64,000 nt of DNA. Origin: Dyella jiangningensis. Lineage in GTDB: Bacteria; Pseudomonadota; Gammaproteobacteria; Xanthomonadales; Rhodanobacteraceae. The stretch covers positions 806,001 through 870,000 of the forward strand of contig NZ_NFZS01000004.1 in NCBI RefSeq assembly GCF_003264855.1, written 5' to 3'. Each line of letters opens with the position of its first letter. The stretch's first letter is position 1. A program made the translations under genes and the position numbers. Below the pieces are notes generated by a model that was not told the DNA's origin, searched no databases, and was given only the letters and a program-made list of their open reading frames with translations. Shown here piece by piece: positions 3,040-59,185 of the stretch.

Positions 3040-3615
3040 ATGACTGAACCCAGTTCCCAGCCCCAGTCCCTCGCCGGTCATTTCCTGATCGCCATGCCCA
3101 GCCTGGCCGAGCCGCCCTTCTCGCGCGGCGTGGCCTTCATCTGCCAGCACGACGAAGACGGCGCGGTAGGACTGCTGGTGAACCAGCTTTCCGAATATCG
3201 CCTGGGCGACGTGCTGGCGCAGATGAAGCTCGACTGCAACGACCTGGAAGTCGCCGACGCACCGGTGCTGATCGGCGGCCCCGTGCAGCAGGAGCGTGGC
3301 TTCGTGCTGCATCGCGAACCCGGCCATTGGGAATCGAGCTACCGCATCAACACCGACTGGTCGGTGACCACGTCGCGCGACATCCTGGTCGCCATGGCCA
3401 AGGGGGAAGGTCCGCGCCTGGCGGTGATGGCGCTGGGCTATGCCGGCTGGAGCGCTGGCCAGCTCGAACAGGAGCTCAAGGACAATACCTGGCTGACCGT
3501 CGAGGCGAGCGAGCGCGTGGTGTTCCATACGCCGCTGGAGGAACGCTGGAGCGCTGCCGCCGGGCTCGTCGGCGTGGACCCGCTGCAGTTGCCCGGTTAC
3601 GCGGGCCACGCGTGA
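3040..3615 (+). CDS. yqgE: YqgE/AlgH family protein
   Basis: 191 residues of the UPF0301 family: LAGHFLIAMPSL at the N-terminus, VAFICQHDEDGAVGLLVNQ and the segment VLIGGPVQQERGFVLHR are diagnostic. The biochemical function is not settled. It precedes ruvX as in E. coli and Pseudomonas. The ATG at 3040 gives the canonical N-terminus MTEPSSQPQSLAGHF. The stop codon TGA shares its last base with the first base of a palindromic element (3615-3882), so the gene ends exactly where the repeat begins. Confidence 0.93.
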   Translation: MTEPSSQPQSLAGHFLIAMPSLAEPPFSRGVAFICQHDEDGAVGLLVNQLSEYRLGDVLAQMKLDCNDLEVADAPVLIGGPVQQERGFVLHREPGHWESSYRINTDWSVTTSRDILVAMAKGEGPRLAVMALGYAGWSAGQLEQELKDNTWLTVEASERVVFHTPLEERWSAAAGLVGVDPLQLPGYAGHA

Positions 3616-3882
3616 GAGCCTGTTTCATGGGTTTGCATAGCCCGCGTTGGTCCCCAGCGCCCGCCAGGGAGTGGGGCGCAGCGCAGCGCCTGACTGGCTG
3701 TCAGGTCAAGCGGCGCACCGCTTCCTGGCGGGCGCTGGGAACCAACCCTCCGGGCCGGGGCTGTTTGCCCACCAGCCTGCGTCATCACTCGGTCGTGTAT
3801 CGACATACACTCCCTCACTCTTCCTTGGCTGGCGGGCAAACAGCCCTCGGCGCGGGCCATGCAAACCCATGAAACAGGCTCT
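3615..3882 (+). repeat. Palindromic operon element, copy A (268 bp)
   Basis: Outer 32-bp inverted arms (3615-3646 and 3851-3882) differ at one position. They consist of AGAGCCTG, a copy-specific 16-mer TTTCATGGGTTTGCAT, one variable base and GCCCGCG. Inside are two hairpins in order. The first has a 22-bp stem with one mismatch around a conserved loop containing CTGACTGGCTGTCAG. The second has arms GGCTGTTTGCCC and GGGCAAACAGCC around a conserved loop containing GTGTATCGACATACAC. It fills the yqgE-ruvX gap, and the ruvX ATG (3869) lies inside its right arm. A frame is open from TTG 3647 straight into ruvX. Confidence 0.9.
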
Positions 3883-15934: not shown

Positions 15935-15956
15935 GCCTCGCACTCCACCTTCGCGC

Positions 15957-15991
15957 CCTCTCCCCTCCGGGGAGAGGGTTGGGGTGAGGGG
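15957..15991 (+). repeat. CCCTCTCCCC/GGGGAGAGGG intergenic repeat
   Basis: A palindrome around TCCCCTCCGGGGAGAGGG followed by TTGGGGTGAGGGG. The same unit occurs at 24024-24061, in inverse form at 24131-24172, and as an inverted pair inside valS (26207-26323). Confidence 0.8.
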
Positions 15992-16033
15992 CCAATCTAG
16001 CCTCATGACCCATAGTTGCGTTGCTGTTTCCTT

Positions 16034-16105
16034 GTAGGAGCGCACCCTGTGCGCGACCGCAGAGGGCATCGCTGCGCCGCGGTCGCGCACAGGGTGCGCT
16101 CCCAC
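16034..16105. repeat. REP pair (BIME) with GTAGGAGCGCACC core
   Basis: Left unit GTAGGAGCGCACCCTGTGCG followed by CGACCGC; the right unit is its inverse ending GGTGCGCTCCCAC. The GTAG head with a GC-rich palindrome is the standard REP design. It lies between convergent genes. Confidence 0.85.
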
Positions 16106-16568
16106 AGGGACGTGCCCGCTCTTCGCTCTGGCTTTTGACCTCCGGCCCCCTATGCCGCGGCGGGCGGGTGGAGGAAAGCCCGAAGGGTGGCCGGCAGGGG
16201 TGCCGGCCAGTTTGTCGTCAGGGCAGGATGCCCTGTCGACAAACCCCGTAACCCGCCCGCGAACCTTCCGGGGCGTATGCCCGGAAGGCGCGGCATCGGG
16301 GTGGCCTTTCTCTTGGCATTGCCACCTTTACGGTGGTTACTTTTCTTGACTCCGGGCATCCTGCCTTTCGCCCTTCGGGCCGGCTTCGCCGTTCGCACGC
16401 GCTCCTGCGCGTGCGTGGCCACCCAAAGAGAAGTGACCCGGCCTCCGGCAGGAGGGCGGAAGCCCGCCGCAGGCGAGCCAGGTCGCCGTAACGCGACAAC
16501 CGTAAACCGAGGCCCTGGTCCCCGGCCTGCGCCGGGGCGACGAACGTAAGGACCGAGGCGAAAGGCCA

Positions 16569-16591
16569 TCGCGCACTGGGTGCGCTCCTAC
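16569..16591 (-). repeat. Single REP unit
   Basis: GCGCACTGGGTGCGCTCCTAC, the inverse-orientation REP unit, 31 nt beyond the 3' end of the solute-binding-fold gene. Confidence 0.8.
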
Positions 16592-16621
16592 AGGGGGAGA
16601 ATCCGCAGGCTGGTTCGCAGC

Positions 16622-22320: not shown

Positions 22321-22340
22321 TCGCCGCTACCCTCCCTTTT

Positions 22341-22421
22341 GTAGGAGCGCACCCTGTGCGCGACCGCAGCGCTTCATCGTTTCCGCTCCGTAGGCCTATC
22401 GCGCACTGGGTGCGCTCCTAC
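22341..22421. repeat. REP pair (BIME)
   Basis: GTAGGAGCGCACCCTGTGCG at the left and its inverse GCGCACTGGGTGCGCTCCTA at the right, with a 35-nt spacer that itself contains CCGTAGGC. Confidence 0.85.
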
Positions 22422-22487
22422 AGAAGAGACAAAAAGCCAGGCAAACAGTCGTGTGGCGGCCTCAGACGCGCACGCTGCGCCCCAGCT

Positions 22488-22568
22488 GTAGGAGCGCACC
22501 CAGTGCGCGACCGCAGCGGCCCATCGTTTCGGCTCCGTAGGCTCGTCGCGCACAGGGTGCGCCCCCAC
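22488..22568. repeat. REP pair (BIME)
   Basis: GTAGGAGCGCACCCAGTGCG at the left and CGCGCACAGGGTGCGCCCCC at the right. The spacer is nearly identical to that of the neighbouring pair (CATCGTTTC.GCTCCGTAGGC), so the two BIMEs look like a tandem duplication that later diverged. Confidence 0.85.
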
Positions 22569-22682
22569 ACAGAACAACCTGCGAATGGAACGCGGCGCAT
22601 CGCCGCGCTCGCTCCTTCGCGCCAAGCCTTCTAGAATGCGGCTTCCAAGGCCATTCGCCATCCCTGCTCCGAATCGACCTCC

Positions 22683-24023: not shown

Positions 24024-24061
24024 CTCCCTCTCCCCTCTGGGGAAAGGGTTGGGGTGAGGGG
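24024..24061 (+). repeat. CCCTCTCCCC-type intergenic repeat, direct unit
   Basis: CCCTCTCCCCTCTGGGGAAA then GGGTTGGGGTGAGGGG, just after hemE. It pairs with an inverse unit 70 nt downstream. Confidence 0.8.
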
Positions 24062-24130
24062 CGGGTGCTCGCGAGAGACCTGCCTAAGCCAAAGATCGCC
24101 CCCATATCCCGATGAGAACCGTGGCAAGCC

Positions 24131-27175: not shown

Positions 27176-27223
27176 TCCCGCGTCAACGCGCGGTGCCACA
27201 AACGGCGCCGCGCCCTGCTTGTT

Positions 27224-27343
27224 GTAGGAGCGCACCCAGTGCGCGATCGCAGCCTGTCCTTCCATCTCGGTTGACGGTGGTCGCGAAGACCCACCACCGC
27301 GGCATGCATCCATGCCGCGGTCGCGCACTGGGTGCGCTCCTAC
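27224..27343. repeat. REP pair (BIME)
   Basis: GTAGGAGCGCACCCAGTGCG at the left and GCGCACTGGGTGCGCTCCTA at the right, with an 80-nt spacer containing CCACCACCGCGGCATGCATC. It fills the gap between convergent valS and rimI. Confidence 0.85.
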
Positions 27344-27356
27344 AAAGGTGGCGGGG

Positions 27357-33363: not shown

Positions 33364-33708
33364 CGGGCGCCAGCCCGGTTCGGCGGCGCGAGGGGCAAAA
33401 AAACGGCGAAAAGAGAGGTATCCGTCGACATGCCGCTAGTAGACCTGATTTGGATGACTATTGTCAGCGACAGCCCGCTTGCTCGGCACCACCTGTAGGA
33501 GCGCACCCAGTGCGCGAAAGGCCTTTACGTGTGCGGCGTGGGCGCTGGAGCGGCGACAACCCGGCTCTTCGGCCATGCCTGCCTCTGCGGTCGTGCACTG
33601 GGTGCGCTCCTACAGCCAAGGGGGATGATGAATCCGGGGGGAAACACCCCCATCTAGGACAAGGTAAACTTGGCGGTTCCGCCACCTCGCACGGGTTTCG
33701 AGTTTCCG
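33364..33708. other. Divergent intergenic region with a REP pair
   Basis: 345 nt between the ThrE gene and glnS. A BIME covers 33495-33613. No supported gene. The glnS promoter must lie in the last ~95 nt or overlap the repeat. Confidence 0.6.
33495..33613. repeat. REP pair (BIME)
   Basis: GTAGGAGCGCACCCAGTGCG at the left and TGCACTGGGTGCGCTCCTAC at the right, with a ~75-nt spacer. Unusually for the BIMEs here, it lies between divergent genes. Confidence 0.85.
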
Positions 33709-35499: not shown

Positions 35500-35671
35500 A
35501 GAGCCTGATTATGCTCTCCATATCGCCTGCGCAACCCTTCGGGCCGGGCCTGTTTGCCCTCCCGCCGTCGTCATCATTCAGTCGTGTATCGACATACACT
35601 CCTTCACTCTTCCTTGGCTGGCGCGCAAACAGATCCCGGCGCGGGCCATATGGAGAGCATAATCAGGCTCT
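35500..35671 (+). repeat. Palindromic operon element, copy B (172 bp short form)
   Basis: Outer arms are perfect over 24 bp: AGAGCCTG then the copy-specific 16-mer ATTATGCTCTCCATAT, repeated in inverse at 35648-35671; two mismatches appear when extended to 32 bp. It lacks the first hairpin present in copies A, C and D; the missing stretch is 96 bp, a multiple of three. The second hairpin keeps CTGTTTGC / GCAAACAG around GTGTATCGACATACAC. It sits between glnS and the deaminase, whose ATG is 3 nt past the right end, in the same orientation to transcription as the other copies. Confidence 0.9.
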
Positions 35672-45253: not shown

Positions 45254-45284
45254 TCCAGCAACCGCTTTGCCCTGCATCTCTTTT

Positions 45285-45313
45285 GTAGGAGCGCACCCAG
45301 TGCGCGACCGCAG
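45285..45313 (+). repeat. Single REP unit
   Basis: GTAGGAGCGCACCCAGTGCG followed by CGACCGCAG, without an inverse partner. It lies just after the histidine kinase gene. Confidence 0.8.
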
Positions 45314-45418
45314 AGACGAGATTGGCCACGCATCGGGTTCTCGCCGCGGATACCCCAGCGCGAATGAAACGATCCTCACCCCGCCCGCTTATCGCGCGTG
45401 ACAGTCGTCCCCCAAGGC

Positions 45419-45457: not shown

Positions 45458-45533
45458 TGGTGGGTCGTCCGAGATTCGAACTCGGGACCAATAGATTAAA
45501 AGTCTACTGCTCTACCGACTGAGCTAACGACCC
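45458..45533 (-). tRNA. tRNA-Lys (UUU)
   Basis: 76 nt with an encoded CCA end. Acceptor GGGTCG / CGACCC, D-arm AGCTCAGTCGGTAGAGC, anticodon loop CTTTTAA (anticodon TTT), T-arm GTTCGAATC. Closely matches E. coli tRNA-Lys. Transcribed leftwards from its own promoter and ended by a strong terminator. Confidence 0.98.
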
Positions 45534-50162: not shown

Positions 50163-51103
50163 CACTGCGGCCTGAAAGTGAAATCGATCTGACGCTGGAA
50201 TACGCTTTCGAAACCCTTGTAGGGCAAGGGCTGCGCGCGCAGGACGGCGTTTTCGATGGAGCGCTTGCCGGCCTCGTCGTACGGACAGCTCGAGTCGACC
50301 TTGGCGCTCATCACGTCGCCGCCCGGCAGCTGCACGATGTGCACGATGCACGGCGTGTTCGGCATGTTATCCGGGCGTAACCAATTCTGCGTGACCGCGT
50401 TCTGAATCGACGCCAAATATTGCGCCAGCAGGCCGGCATCGGGACCGTTGTTGCCGGTCTGCCGCTGGGCGGCATTGGGCACGTTGGCCAGGCCATTGTC
50501 CTGGGCGTTCTTCAGGTCTTCCATCTGCTGCTTGGCCTGCTTGGCCTTGTTGTCCGCCCGCTTGGTCTGCTGGTCGGCCGCGTCCATCTTGGCGAACAGC
50601 TCGTCGAGCTGTTTCTGCTTTTCCTGCTTCTGCTTGGCGGCCTGGGCATCCAGTTCGGCGGCGCGCTGGCGCTGCTTCTCTTCCTGCTCCTTCTTGGCAT
50701 CCTCGGCCTTCTGCAACGCATCGGCCACCACCTTCTCCTGATCCTTGGTGTCCGGATGCTCGGGCGGGGGCGGCAAGGTCTTCACCTTGGGCGCTTCGGG
50801 CACCGGCGGCGGCGTCACGGTCGGCGGCGGGGGCACGGTATCGGGCACCGGCTTCGCCTTGACCGCCTTCGGCGGCGGGGCACCGGTCGGGCCGACCAGG
50901 GTCGCCTCGATGATTTCGCCCGGCAGCTCGATCGGCTTGGCGCAGGTGATCGGATTCCAGCTCGCCGGCAGATGCAGGGTTTCGAACAGGCCCTCGTAGA
51001 ACGAGCACGGGATCACCGCGAGGGCCAGAAAGCCCACGATGCCCAGATGCAGGATGGCGGAAAGAACGACCGCCTTGGATGTGCCTTCAGAGCTTGTTTT
51101 CAT
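50162..51103 (-). CDS. tolA: Cell envelope integrity protein TolA
   Basis: 313 residues. Single TM at about 11-31, a proline-rich stretch (about 85-115), a long Lys/Gln/Glu/Ala-rich helical domain (about 118-215) and a C-terminal TolA/TonB-like domain (DAGLLAQYLASIQNAVTQNWLRP, with CIVHIVQLPGGDVMSAKV). The start ATG AAA ACA AGC lies inside the arm of palindromic copy C, and this ATG overlaps the TGA of the element's own open frame (ATGA). So the first codons of tolA are repeat-derived and its initiation region is inside a long hairpin. Confidence 0.95.
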   Translation of the reverse strand: MKTSSEGTSKAVVLSAILHLGIVGFLALAVIPCSFYEGLFETLHLPASWNPITCAKPIELPGEIIEATLVGPTGAPPPKAVKAKPVPDTVPPPPTVTPPPVPEAPKVKTLPPPPEHPDTKDQEKVVADALQKAEDAKKEQEEKQRQRAAELDAQAAKQKQEKQKQLDELFAKMDAADQQTKRADNKAKQAKQQMEDLKNAQDNGLANVPNAAQRQTGNNGPDAGLLAQYLASIQNAVTQNWLRPDNMPNTPCIVHIVQLPGGDVMSAKVDSSCPYDEAGKRSIENAVLRAQPLPYKGFESVFQRQIDFTFRPQ

Positions 51104-51356
51104 ATGCCAAGCGCCTCGCGCCGGGGGCTGTTTGCCCGCAGGGCAAGGAAGAACGAAGGCGTGTATGTCGATACACAACTGAGTGATGACGCAACCCTGT
51201 GGGCAAACAGCCCCGGCCCGCAGGGTTCCGCTTGAGCGGCCGCCAGGCGATAGCGCGCGGCTTGACCTGCCAGCCAGGCAGGCGCTACGCCACGCACTAT
51301 CGCCTGGCGGCCGCTCAAGCGGAACGCGAGGTGCTTGGCATATGAAAACAAGCTCT
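51089..51356 (-). repeat. Palindromic operon element, copy C (268 bp)
   Basis: Arms of 32 bp with one mismatch: AGAGCTTG, copy-specific 16-mer TTTTCATATGCCAAGC, then CCTCGCG. The first stem (in transcription order) is a perfect 29 bp beginning GTTCCGCTTGAGCGGCCGCC, with a loop hairpin CTGCC-TGGCT-GGCAG, where copies A and D have CTGAC-TGGCT-GTCAG. The second stem GGGCTGTTTGCCCaCAGGG pairs with CCCTGcGGGCAAACAGCCC around GTGTATCGACATACAC. It lies between tolR and tolA. Same total length as A and D despite unrelated stem sequence. Confidence 0.92.
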
Positions 51357-51809: not shown

Positions 51810-52071
51810 CGTTTAGAGCCTGACTATGGTCTTCACGTTGCCCGCGCCGGGATCTGTTTGCGCGCAAGCCAAGGAAGAACGATGGAATGTATGTCGATAC
51901 ACGACGGAGTGATGACGCAGGATGGCGGGCAAACAGACCCGGCCCGAAGGGTTGAGCCCGAATGCCCGGCTGGGTGCGACGCGCGTCTTGACCTGACAGC
52001 CAGTCAGCTGCGGCGCCACGCGCCACACCCAGCCGGGCATTCGGACTCAACGCGGGCGACGTGAAGGCCAT
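51802..52071 (-). CDS. Element-borne small open frame, copy D (between tolQ and tolR)
   Basis: 89 codons starting at the ATG at element position 12, with GGAGA straight after the tolQ stop as a plausible ribosome binding site. The stop (GAT GCG TAG) overlaps the tolR start codon region by 8 nt. It shares ADWLSGQDARR and FGPGLFARHPASSLRRVSTYIPSFFLGLRANRSRRG with the frames in copies A-C. Function and translation unknown. Confidence 0.35.
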
Positions 52072-52082
52072 AGTCAGGCTCT
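51815..52082 (-). repeat. Palindromic operon element, copy D (268 bp)
   Basis: Arms of 32 bp with two mismatches: AGAGCCTG, copy-specific 16-mer ACTATGGYCTTCACGT, variable base, GCCCGCG. First stem 25 bp with one mismatch, beginning TTGAGTCCGAATGCCCGGCT in transcription order, around loop hairpin CTGAC-TGGCT-GTCAG. Second stem CTGTTTGC / GCAAACAG around GTGTATCGACATACA. It fills the tolQ-tolR gap in the same orientation as copy C. Confidence 0.92.
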
Positions 52083-59055: not shown

Positions 59056-59185
59056 CTGTCATTCCGGCGCAGGCCGGAATCCAGAGACGCGTGGCGCGGC
59101 TTTCGCGTGACGGCAGGCGCTCTGTACCGGAGGCGAAAATCCGACGCTCCGGCCACTGGATTCCGGCCTGCGCCGGAATGACGGA
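59056..59185. repeat. Inverted intergenic repeat pair
   Basis: GTCATTCCGGCGCAGGCCGG followed by AATCCAG at 59058-59084, and its exact inverse ending GCGCCGGAATGAC at 59157-59183. Each unit is itself palindromic (CCGGCGCAGGCCGG). The pair encloses ~72 nt and sits between the hydrolase and aspS. Confidence 0.85.

Follow-up and report, generated by a model that had tools for sequence, protein, structure and literature searches.

How the two arms of a long palindrome remain complementary while their sequence changes from copy to copy is the question raised by an element of 268 nt near the beginning of a 64 000-nucleotide stretch of the Dyella jiangningensis genome (contig NZ_NFZS01000004.1, positions 806 001–870 000, hereafter the window). 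Whether perfect stems owe their persistence to selection or to one arm acting as template for the other is a question posed in PMC8794818, and the initial annotation of the window had arrived at the same pair of possibilities, namely strong selection on structure or the copying of one arm onto its partner. This dilemma turned out to be a real one, and could be sharpened by the comparison of a large number of copies, with neither side being singled out.

Copies in the window and plan of the element

Copy A (3615–3882, plus strand, 268 nt) is located at the junction between yqgE (AlgH-like) and ruvX, and copy B (35500–35671, plus strand, 172 nt) at that between a Glu/Gln-tRNA synthetase gene and a deaminase-family gene. 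Copies C (51089–51356) and D (51815–52082), of 268 nt each, lie on the minus strand, in opposite orientation to A and B; the former occupies the junction of a tolR/exbD-like gene with the one that follows, and the latter that of a tolQ/exbB-like gene with the tolR/exbD-like gene. The gene next to C gave no Pfam match and is called tolA solely from its position. The coordinates and lengths initially given for the four copies hold, as does the symmetry claimed within each of them: the first 24 nt of the arms pair at 24/24 positions in A, B and C and at 23/24 in D, while the best chance matches in 25 shuffled samples, searched in a comparable way, reached only 14–17/24. The four loci had also been proposed to form one family, and the copies indeed align as such, for which reason their interpretation as unrelated hairpins was rejected. 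The 16 nt described as private to each copy do differ between copies, but they are not unrelated sequences; they are diverged forms of a single arm, AGAGCCTGTTCA...TCTCC..., as is seen from other copies in the same genome.

The element is composed of an outer stem, P1 (alignment columns 1–32 with 237–268), a hairpin, P2 (33–131), a mini-hairpin, CCCNNNGGG, with a stem of 3 bp (132–140) and a further hairpin, P3 (141–236). In copy A, these parts correspond on the plus strand to the P1 5′ arm, or terminal inverted repeat (TIR), at 3615–3646, which is symmetric with the 3′ arm at 3851–3882; to P2 at 3647–3745, with arms that are variable yet symmetric and an apical loop that is conserved, as judged from folding and covariation; to the mini-hairpin CCCTCCGGG at 3746–3754, recognized from its sequence and from the covariation test; and to P3 at 3755–3850, the core of which, GTCATCACTCGGTCGTGTATCGACATACACTCCCTC, stands out by conservation and covariation. 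Copy B equals the family consensus without P2, which is missing as a clean gap of 96 nt.

The covariation test suggested by the initial annotation covered 98 pairs in 39 diverse copies, and 96.1% of the cells are standard pairs. Cells changed on both sides number 683, compared with a mean of 182 after shuffling and with 76–108 when a slid partner is used, and on each of five covariation measures none of the 500 shuffles reached the observed value. Conservation is far higher in the loops than in the stems of P1 and P2. A standing A.C mismatch is present at columns 25/244 in 107 of the 182 full-length copies, which indicates that the symmetry of the arms is not blind. Pair counts were restricted to copies of 266–269 nt with an arm match of at least 18/24, a symmetry filter that removed a single copy of that length; truncated and contig-end copies, as well as the 172 nt copy B, do not enter the pair statistics. 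In the first set, which was picked by profile span alone, 134 of the 137 copies display an arm match of at least 20/24.

No Rfam covariance model matched the element at the gathering score in the window, the sole match being a tRNA gene (45461–45533, minus strand). The possibility that the element is a coding ORF was rejected on the basis of open-frame counts in 120 copies: the three frames of the plus strand are open in 24, 16 and 26 copies and those of the minus strand in nine, 14 and one, compared with approximately 12% in shuffled sequences. On the minus strand, the tip of P3 can be read by eye as tandem GA.

The window harbours further repeats. One of them, TGTAGGAGCGCACCC(A/T)GTGCGCGACCGC, is likewise dispersed and palindromic and may be described as REP-like; it is present at 16025–16107, 16559–16593, 22332–22570, 27213–27345, 33484–33616 and 45274–45327, in several places as inverted pairs. 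A palindromic repeat of 37 nt, CCCTCTCCCCTCC..GAGGGGC, is found at 15956–15992 and 24026–24062 (95% identical), and the members of an inverted pair starting with GTCATTCCGGCGCAGGCCGGAAT (59058–59103 and 59137–59182) are spaced by 33 nt.

Target sites and candidate helper transposases

Comparison of orthologous loci, which had been put forward as a means of finding the insertion boundaries, revealed that 16 of the 20 Dyella genomes have an exact empty site in place of copy A; there, the yqgE stop codon overlaps the ruvX start and the sequence is continuous. The target of this insertion was TGA, and the element is now preceded by TGA and followed by TTA. Copy C is absent from all of the 18 relatives compared, whereas D is present in one of 18 and B in one of 19. 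At the site of copy B, different sequence is present in loci L310 (71 nt) and L320 (349 nt). A relic of copy A in genome G009 (L212, approximately 2060–2130) has lost nearly the whole element and keeps the 3′ arm and the ruvX start codon.

Insertion takes place at CTNAG-like sites with duplication of TNA, as shown for recent copies. Indeed, in a recent burst in genome G009 the TNA is identical on both flanks in nine of the ten copies listed. Over 144 copies the flanks display the preference C-T-N-A-G, and the three-base flanks are identical in 27 (TNA in 24), against a mean of 9.8 and a largest value of 22 in 2000 shuffles. Three pairs of loci (L147/L342, L178/L373 and L334/L349) contain elements in opposite orientation at the same or a nearby site in different genomes. 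Since the arms differ between the partners, these candidates for a flip represent independent insertions at one site, and inversion of the spacer was rejected; the sites are apparent insertion hot spots.

The initial annotation missed the identity of the arms, which form the terminal inverted repeats in an apparent IS5-type transposition system. An IS5-family element of 846 bp in genome G058, a candidate helper, carries the TIR GAGCCTGTTCAAAGTCTC on both ends and is flanked by TAA and TTA, and the same 18 nt are found in both arms of an element in genome G021 (L262; 18/18). In G485, a distant genome from outside the family, the element arm GGGCCTGTTAACACTA matches the TIR of a resident insertion sequence, GGGCGTGTTAACACTA, at 15/16 positions. 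Genome G009 contains relics of an IS5-family transposase (DDE_Tnp_1, with DUF4096 below the cut-off) with the TIR GAGCCTGTTCAAAATCT. A search with PF13340 gave matches in nine of 22 element-bearing genomes and none in the other 13. For seven of the nine, a comparison with an element arm was possible: the match is two-ended in two (G058 and G485) and limited to one end in G023, G533 possesses a complete insertion sequence with a different TIR and three have no credible TIR pair. The 20 Dyella genomes yielded just two matches to PF13340, below the cut-off and in one genome.

Several attributes of a MITE are found together in this element, which is short (268 nt) and devoid of a transposase gene, shares its TIRs with putatively autonomous elements (18/18 for G058 and L262, 15/16 for G485), duplicates its target site and has empty sites in relatives. 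From the shared TIRs, the target duplications and the empty sites we infer that it is probably a MITE mobilized by IS5-family transposases. With the arms being the TIRs of an apparent IS5-type system, the arm of a young copy resembles the TIR of the presumed helper. Carriage by plasmids or phages was rejected, as P3 of copy A had no match in either the plasmid or the phage collection.

Joint change of the arms: copying and selection

Identity to the nearest copy at another locus served to rank the 182 full-length copies and gives an approximate measure of age. The arms of the youngest class match the putative helper TIR at 14.9 of 18 positions and those of the oldest at 10.4 (Spearman 0.56), and the arm symmetry of the successive classes, from young to old, is 23.3, 22.9, 23.1 and 23.0 of 24. 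These comparisons show arms that start near the TIR of the presumed helper and then drift jointly after insertion. Symmetry is slightly lower with age (Spearman 0.19, p = 0.012), which counts against the copying view. Between nearest neighbours of falling identity, differences in one arm amount to 3–6%, while those in both arms rise from 2% to 26%. Nine orthologous pairs, defined as mutual nearest copies, contain 11 two-arm changes compared with 1.5 expected. In a set of 28 orthologous pairs, in which some of the distant same-orientation 'orthologues' could be repeated insertions at one site, the four closest pairs differ on one side only and the more distant pairs mostly on both sides, with wide scatter; a mismatch therefore seems to arise first and to be resolved later. 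Decaying arms are found in genome G017, in copy A (20/24) and, by eye, in copy B. Simple divergence of the arms without compensating changes, an outcome that the initial annotation had set against its own proposal, is excluded by the covariation, by the two-arm changes in the pair counts and by the symmetry kept in the older age classes.

The best explanation, which on the sequences compared we consider to have an even chance of being correct, is that of a MITE-like element mobilized by IS5-family transposases, in which template switching would maintain P1 and the lower part of P2 and selection would act on the core. A new copy has arms close to the TIR of its presumed helper. After insertion the two arms leave this TIR together, a mutation in one arm seemingly giving rise to a temporary mismatch that is then matched in the opposite arm. 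In P1 and the lower half of P2, the replicating strand would fold and one arm would serve as template for the other, as in template switching at quasi-palindromes, while the upper half of P2, like the P3 tip, would be under additional selection for the fold of one strand, as the strand-specific G.T preference suggests. Among the collected copies, insertions are found chiefly where the neighbouring gene stays translatable, which would reflect their preferential persistence at such places.

The distribution of mismatches differs along the element. In P1, G.T (46) and A.C (63) mismatches show no strand preference in either gene orientation (19 and 29, respectively, in forward copies and 11 and 11 in reverse copies), which speaks for a DNA-level process such as copying and differs from the pattern of a stem selected as RNA. 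The lower part of P2 displays a weak preference (47 versus 26, p = 0.019). In the upper part of P2, G.T mismatches number 203 versus 16 for A.C, and the tip of P3 displays the reverse preference, with 62 A.C versus 18 G.T. The preferences of the upper part of P2 and of the P3 tip change little with the orientation of the neighbouring genes and are therefore not derived from the host mRNA of each copy. Transversions are relatively richer in two-arm changes (130:69) than in one-arm changes (111:31; p = 0.011), an excess that is not predicted by pure copying and to which repeated hits could contribute. The persistence of the A.C mismatch at 25/244 in more than half of the full-length copies also implies that copying is not universal.

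Part of this evidence fits a different account, in which natural selection on the folded structure preserves the pairing of the arms through compensatory substitutions, with mismatches being mildly harmful, becoming fixed and later being compensated, and no templated copying taking place. The overwhelming covariation is in line with such selection, the wealth of transversions in two-arm changes would follow if transversion mismatches were costlier, the pairing preference of one strand is clear in the upper part of P2 and in the P3 tip, the fixed A.C at 25/244 shows that particular bases are kept, and mismatches live long enough to appear as one-sided differences between species. On the other hand, selection on mRNA structure would be expected to produce a large excess of G.T over A.C on the transcribed strand, which P1 does not display; the oldest class is still symmetric (23.0/24); and orthologues have changed symmetrically in all three gene contexts seen, for which a shared host benefit is hard to name. 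Selection as the sole cause is a candidate to which we would assign a less than even chance.

Gene starts, relatives and known systems

All four copies in the window are located at gene starts and are co-directional with their genes, the gene calls having been made by a custom gene finder trained on the window and on 54 core-motif loci. The P1 3′ arm of copy A includes an ATG (3869) in the frame of ruvX, and this ATG is kept in the four genomes with the insertion or its relic, its frame having been assessed by translation in two of them and by eye in G015 and G009. Copy C replaces the first codons of the downstream gene (native MRADSPKGTSKAVV to MKTSSEGTSKAVV) and provides it with an SD-like GAGG and an ATG (51103). 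Copies B and D separate the SD from the ATG of the deaminase-family gene and of the tolR/exbD-like gene (AAGGAG in the latter), respectively, with both SDs being recognized by eye. In an arm subtype defined by an ATATGAA-like motif, the ATG is in frame with the next gene in 11 of 11 copies, from nine independent loci, and is preceded by GAGG in ten of the 11. At tight operon junctions, with no more than 20 nt to the gene on either side, forward loci number 42 and reverse loci nine, compared with 33 and 34 elsewhere. The replication loci alone comprise 13 forward and five reverse at tight junctions (p = 0.10) and 16 and nine elsewhere, so that the effect of orientation is clear in the first set and suggestive in the second.

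These observations could also be accommodated by a class of cis-regulatory RNA, riboswitch-like or acting as a translational coupler, that was spread by transposition and in which P1 would sequester the start of the next gene and the core would open or stabilize it. The excess of forward copies at tight junctions, the in-frame ATG and GAGG of the arm subtype, and the placement of B and D between SD and ATG, which is reminiscent of phage T4 genes 25 and 38, whose initiation regions are split (PMC3014915), would all be explained in this way. Such a role, which is compatible with mobility as a MITE, with copying and with selection, is nevertheless unlikely. The forward bias of the replication set extends beyond tight junctions; an SD to the left of the insertion is not generally enriched (12/41 versus 42/205 control windows, p = 0.22), as a result of which a split SD was rejected as a general rule; none of the 76 new copies belongs to the ATATGAA-like subtype; and P1 shows no G.U preference and the element no Rfam match.

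In all, 247 copies of the family were collected. Copy A matches 20 places in its own genome (three further rows represent A against itself), and matches are present in 19 of 20 Dyella genomes, this genome included. The 54 loci of the core-motif records belong chiefly to Dyella and Rhodanobacter, but also to Frateuria and to MAGs. At the family level, 85 of 197 genomes match. With a covariance model built on the mini-hairpin and P3, matches were obtained in 40 of the 200 genomes searched for the order and in 22 of the 274 searched for the class, each count including the own genome and the E-values being rough; several of these genomes contain many copies. In the family, order and class searches the copy numbers are at least those counted. 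Of 17 distant loci inspected, 12 were trimmed and folded: nine measure 267–271 nt and share the plan of the element with different palindromic arms, and the remaining three measure 205, 286 and 290 nt. The core is found again in genomes across the Gammaproteobacteria, with arms that differ.

In seven of 13 evaluable elements, which are distant relatives (L401–L403, L405, L407, L410 and L412), P2 on the plus strand resembles P3 on the minus strand (the comparison comprised 14 rows, with L399 left out); this likeness is absent from the two Dyella copies tested and from the Dyella consensus. Since P2 resembles the reverse complement of P3 in these relatives, the core may have originated by inverted duplication. 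Tentatively, and at less than even confidence, the elements may be viewed as a gammaproteobacterial superfamily in which the 268 nt three-hairpin core would be heritable, the ends would be swapped to suit the resident IS5-family helper and the stems would be kept perfect by template switching during replication.

That the arms differ merely because subfamilies used transposases with different TIRs, with no equalization of the arms in place, is very improbable: the proximity of recently moved copies to the helper TIR and the other TIR-like arms of distant lineages would fit, but orthologous insertions have changed symmetrically in place, which refutes it as a complete explanation, P2 behaves likewise and is no TIR, and the oldest copies, despite their poor match to the helper TIR, are symmetric, so that it would revive only if the orthologues were repeated insertions at the same site, such as are seen to occur for opposite orientations.

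According to PMC10969869, Correia (NEMIS) elements and bacterial MITEs are likewise short and gene-less, possess folding TIRs, duplicate their target and often lie just 5′ of genes. The present element is distinguished from them by its length of 268 nt, its three hairpins, the duplication of TNA within CTNAG, the co-drifting arms and a core that is common to genomes across the Gammaproteobacteria. Correia elements differ in their sizes and have TA as their target. Insertion sequences of the IS5 family with a DUF4096-type transposase share the TIR of the element in two lineages, and that of G058 also has TNA-type flanks; in contrast to these, the element has no transposase gene and its interior consists of the hairpin core. 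REPINs depend on REP sequences and on RAYT transposases. In common with the element they are dispersed, palindromic and non-autonomous (PMC3116915), but here a DDE helper is indicated and target duplications are present. Rickettsia palindromic elements, as presented in PMC10969869, are also in-frame insertions of palindromes that add residues to host proteins, whereas here the last five codons of the arm alone become an N-terminus, and in one subtype. The proposal closest in mechanism is that of RNA hairpins maintained by template switching, put forward for matched two-arm changes in PMC8794818; that work reconstructs RNA genes, among them rRNA, while here many mobile copies provide replicate histories. 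In the literature searched, no description of the family was found.

The family offers replicate palindromes by the hundred, the boundaries of which are known, together with pairs of orthologues and a measure of age in the form of the distance from the helper TIR, and this makes the question of selection versus copying testable. It also illustrates that a mobile element can settle at the starts of operon genes, such as ruvX and the tol-like genes, where it either lends a start codon or parts the SD from the ATG. If the superfamily reading is true, arm-to-arm copying would be recorded in replicate within one genome, up to dozens of times, and some of these records would now be the start regions of operon genes.
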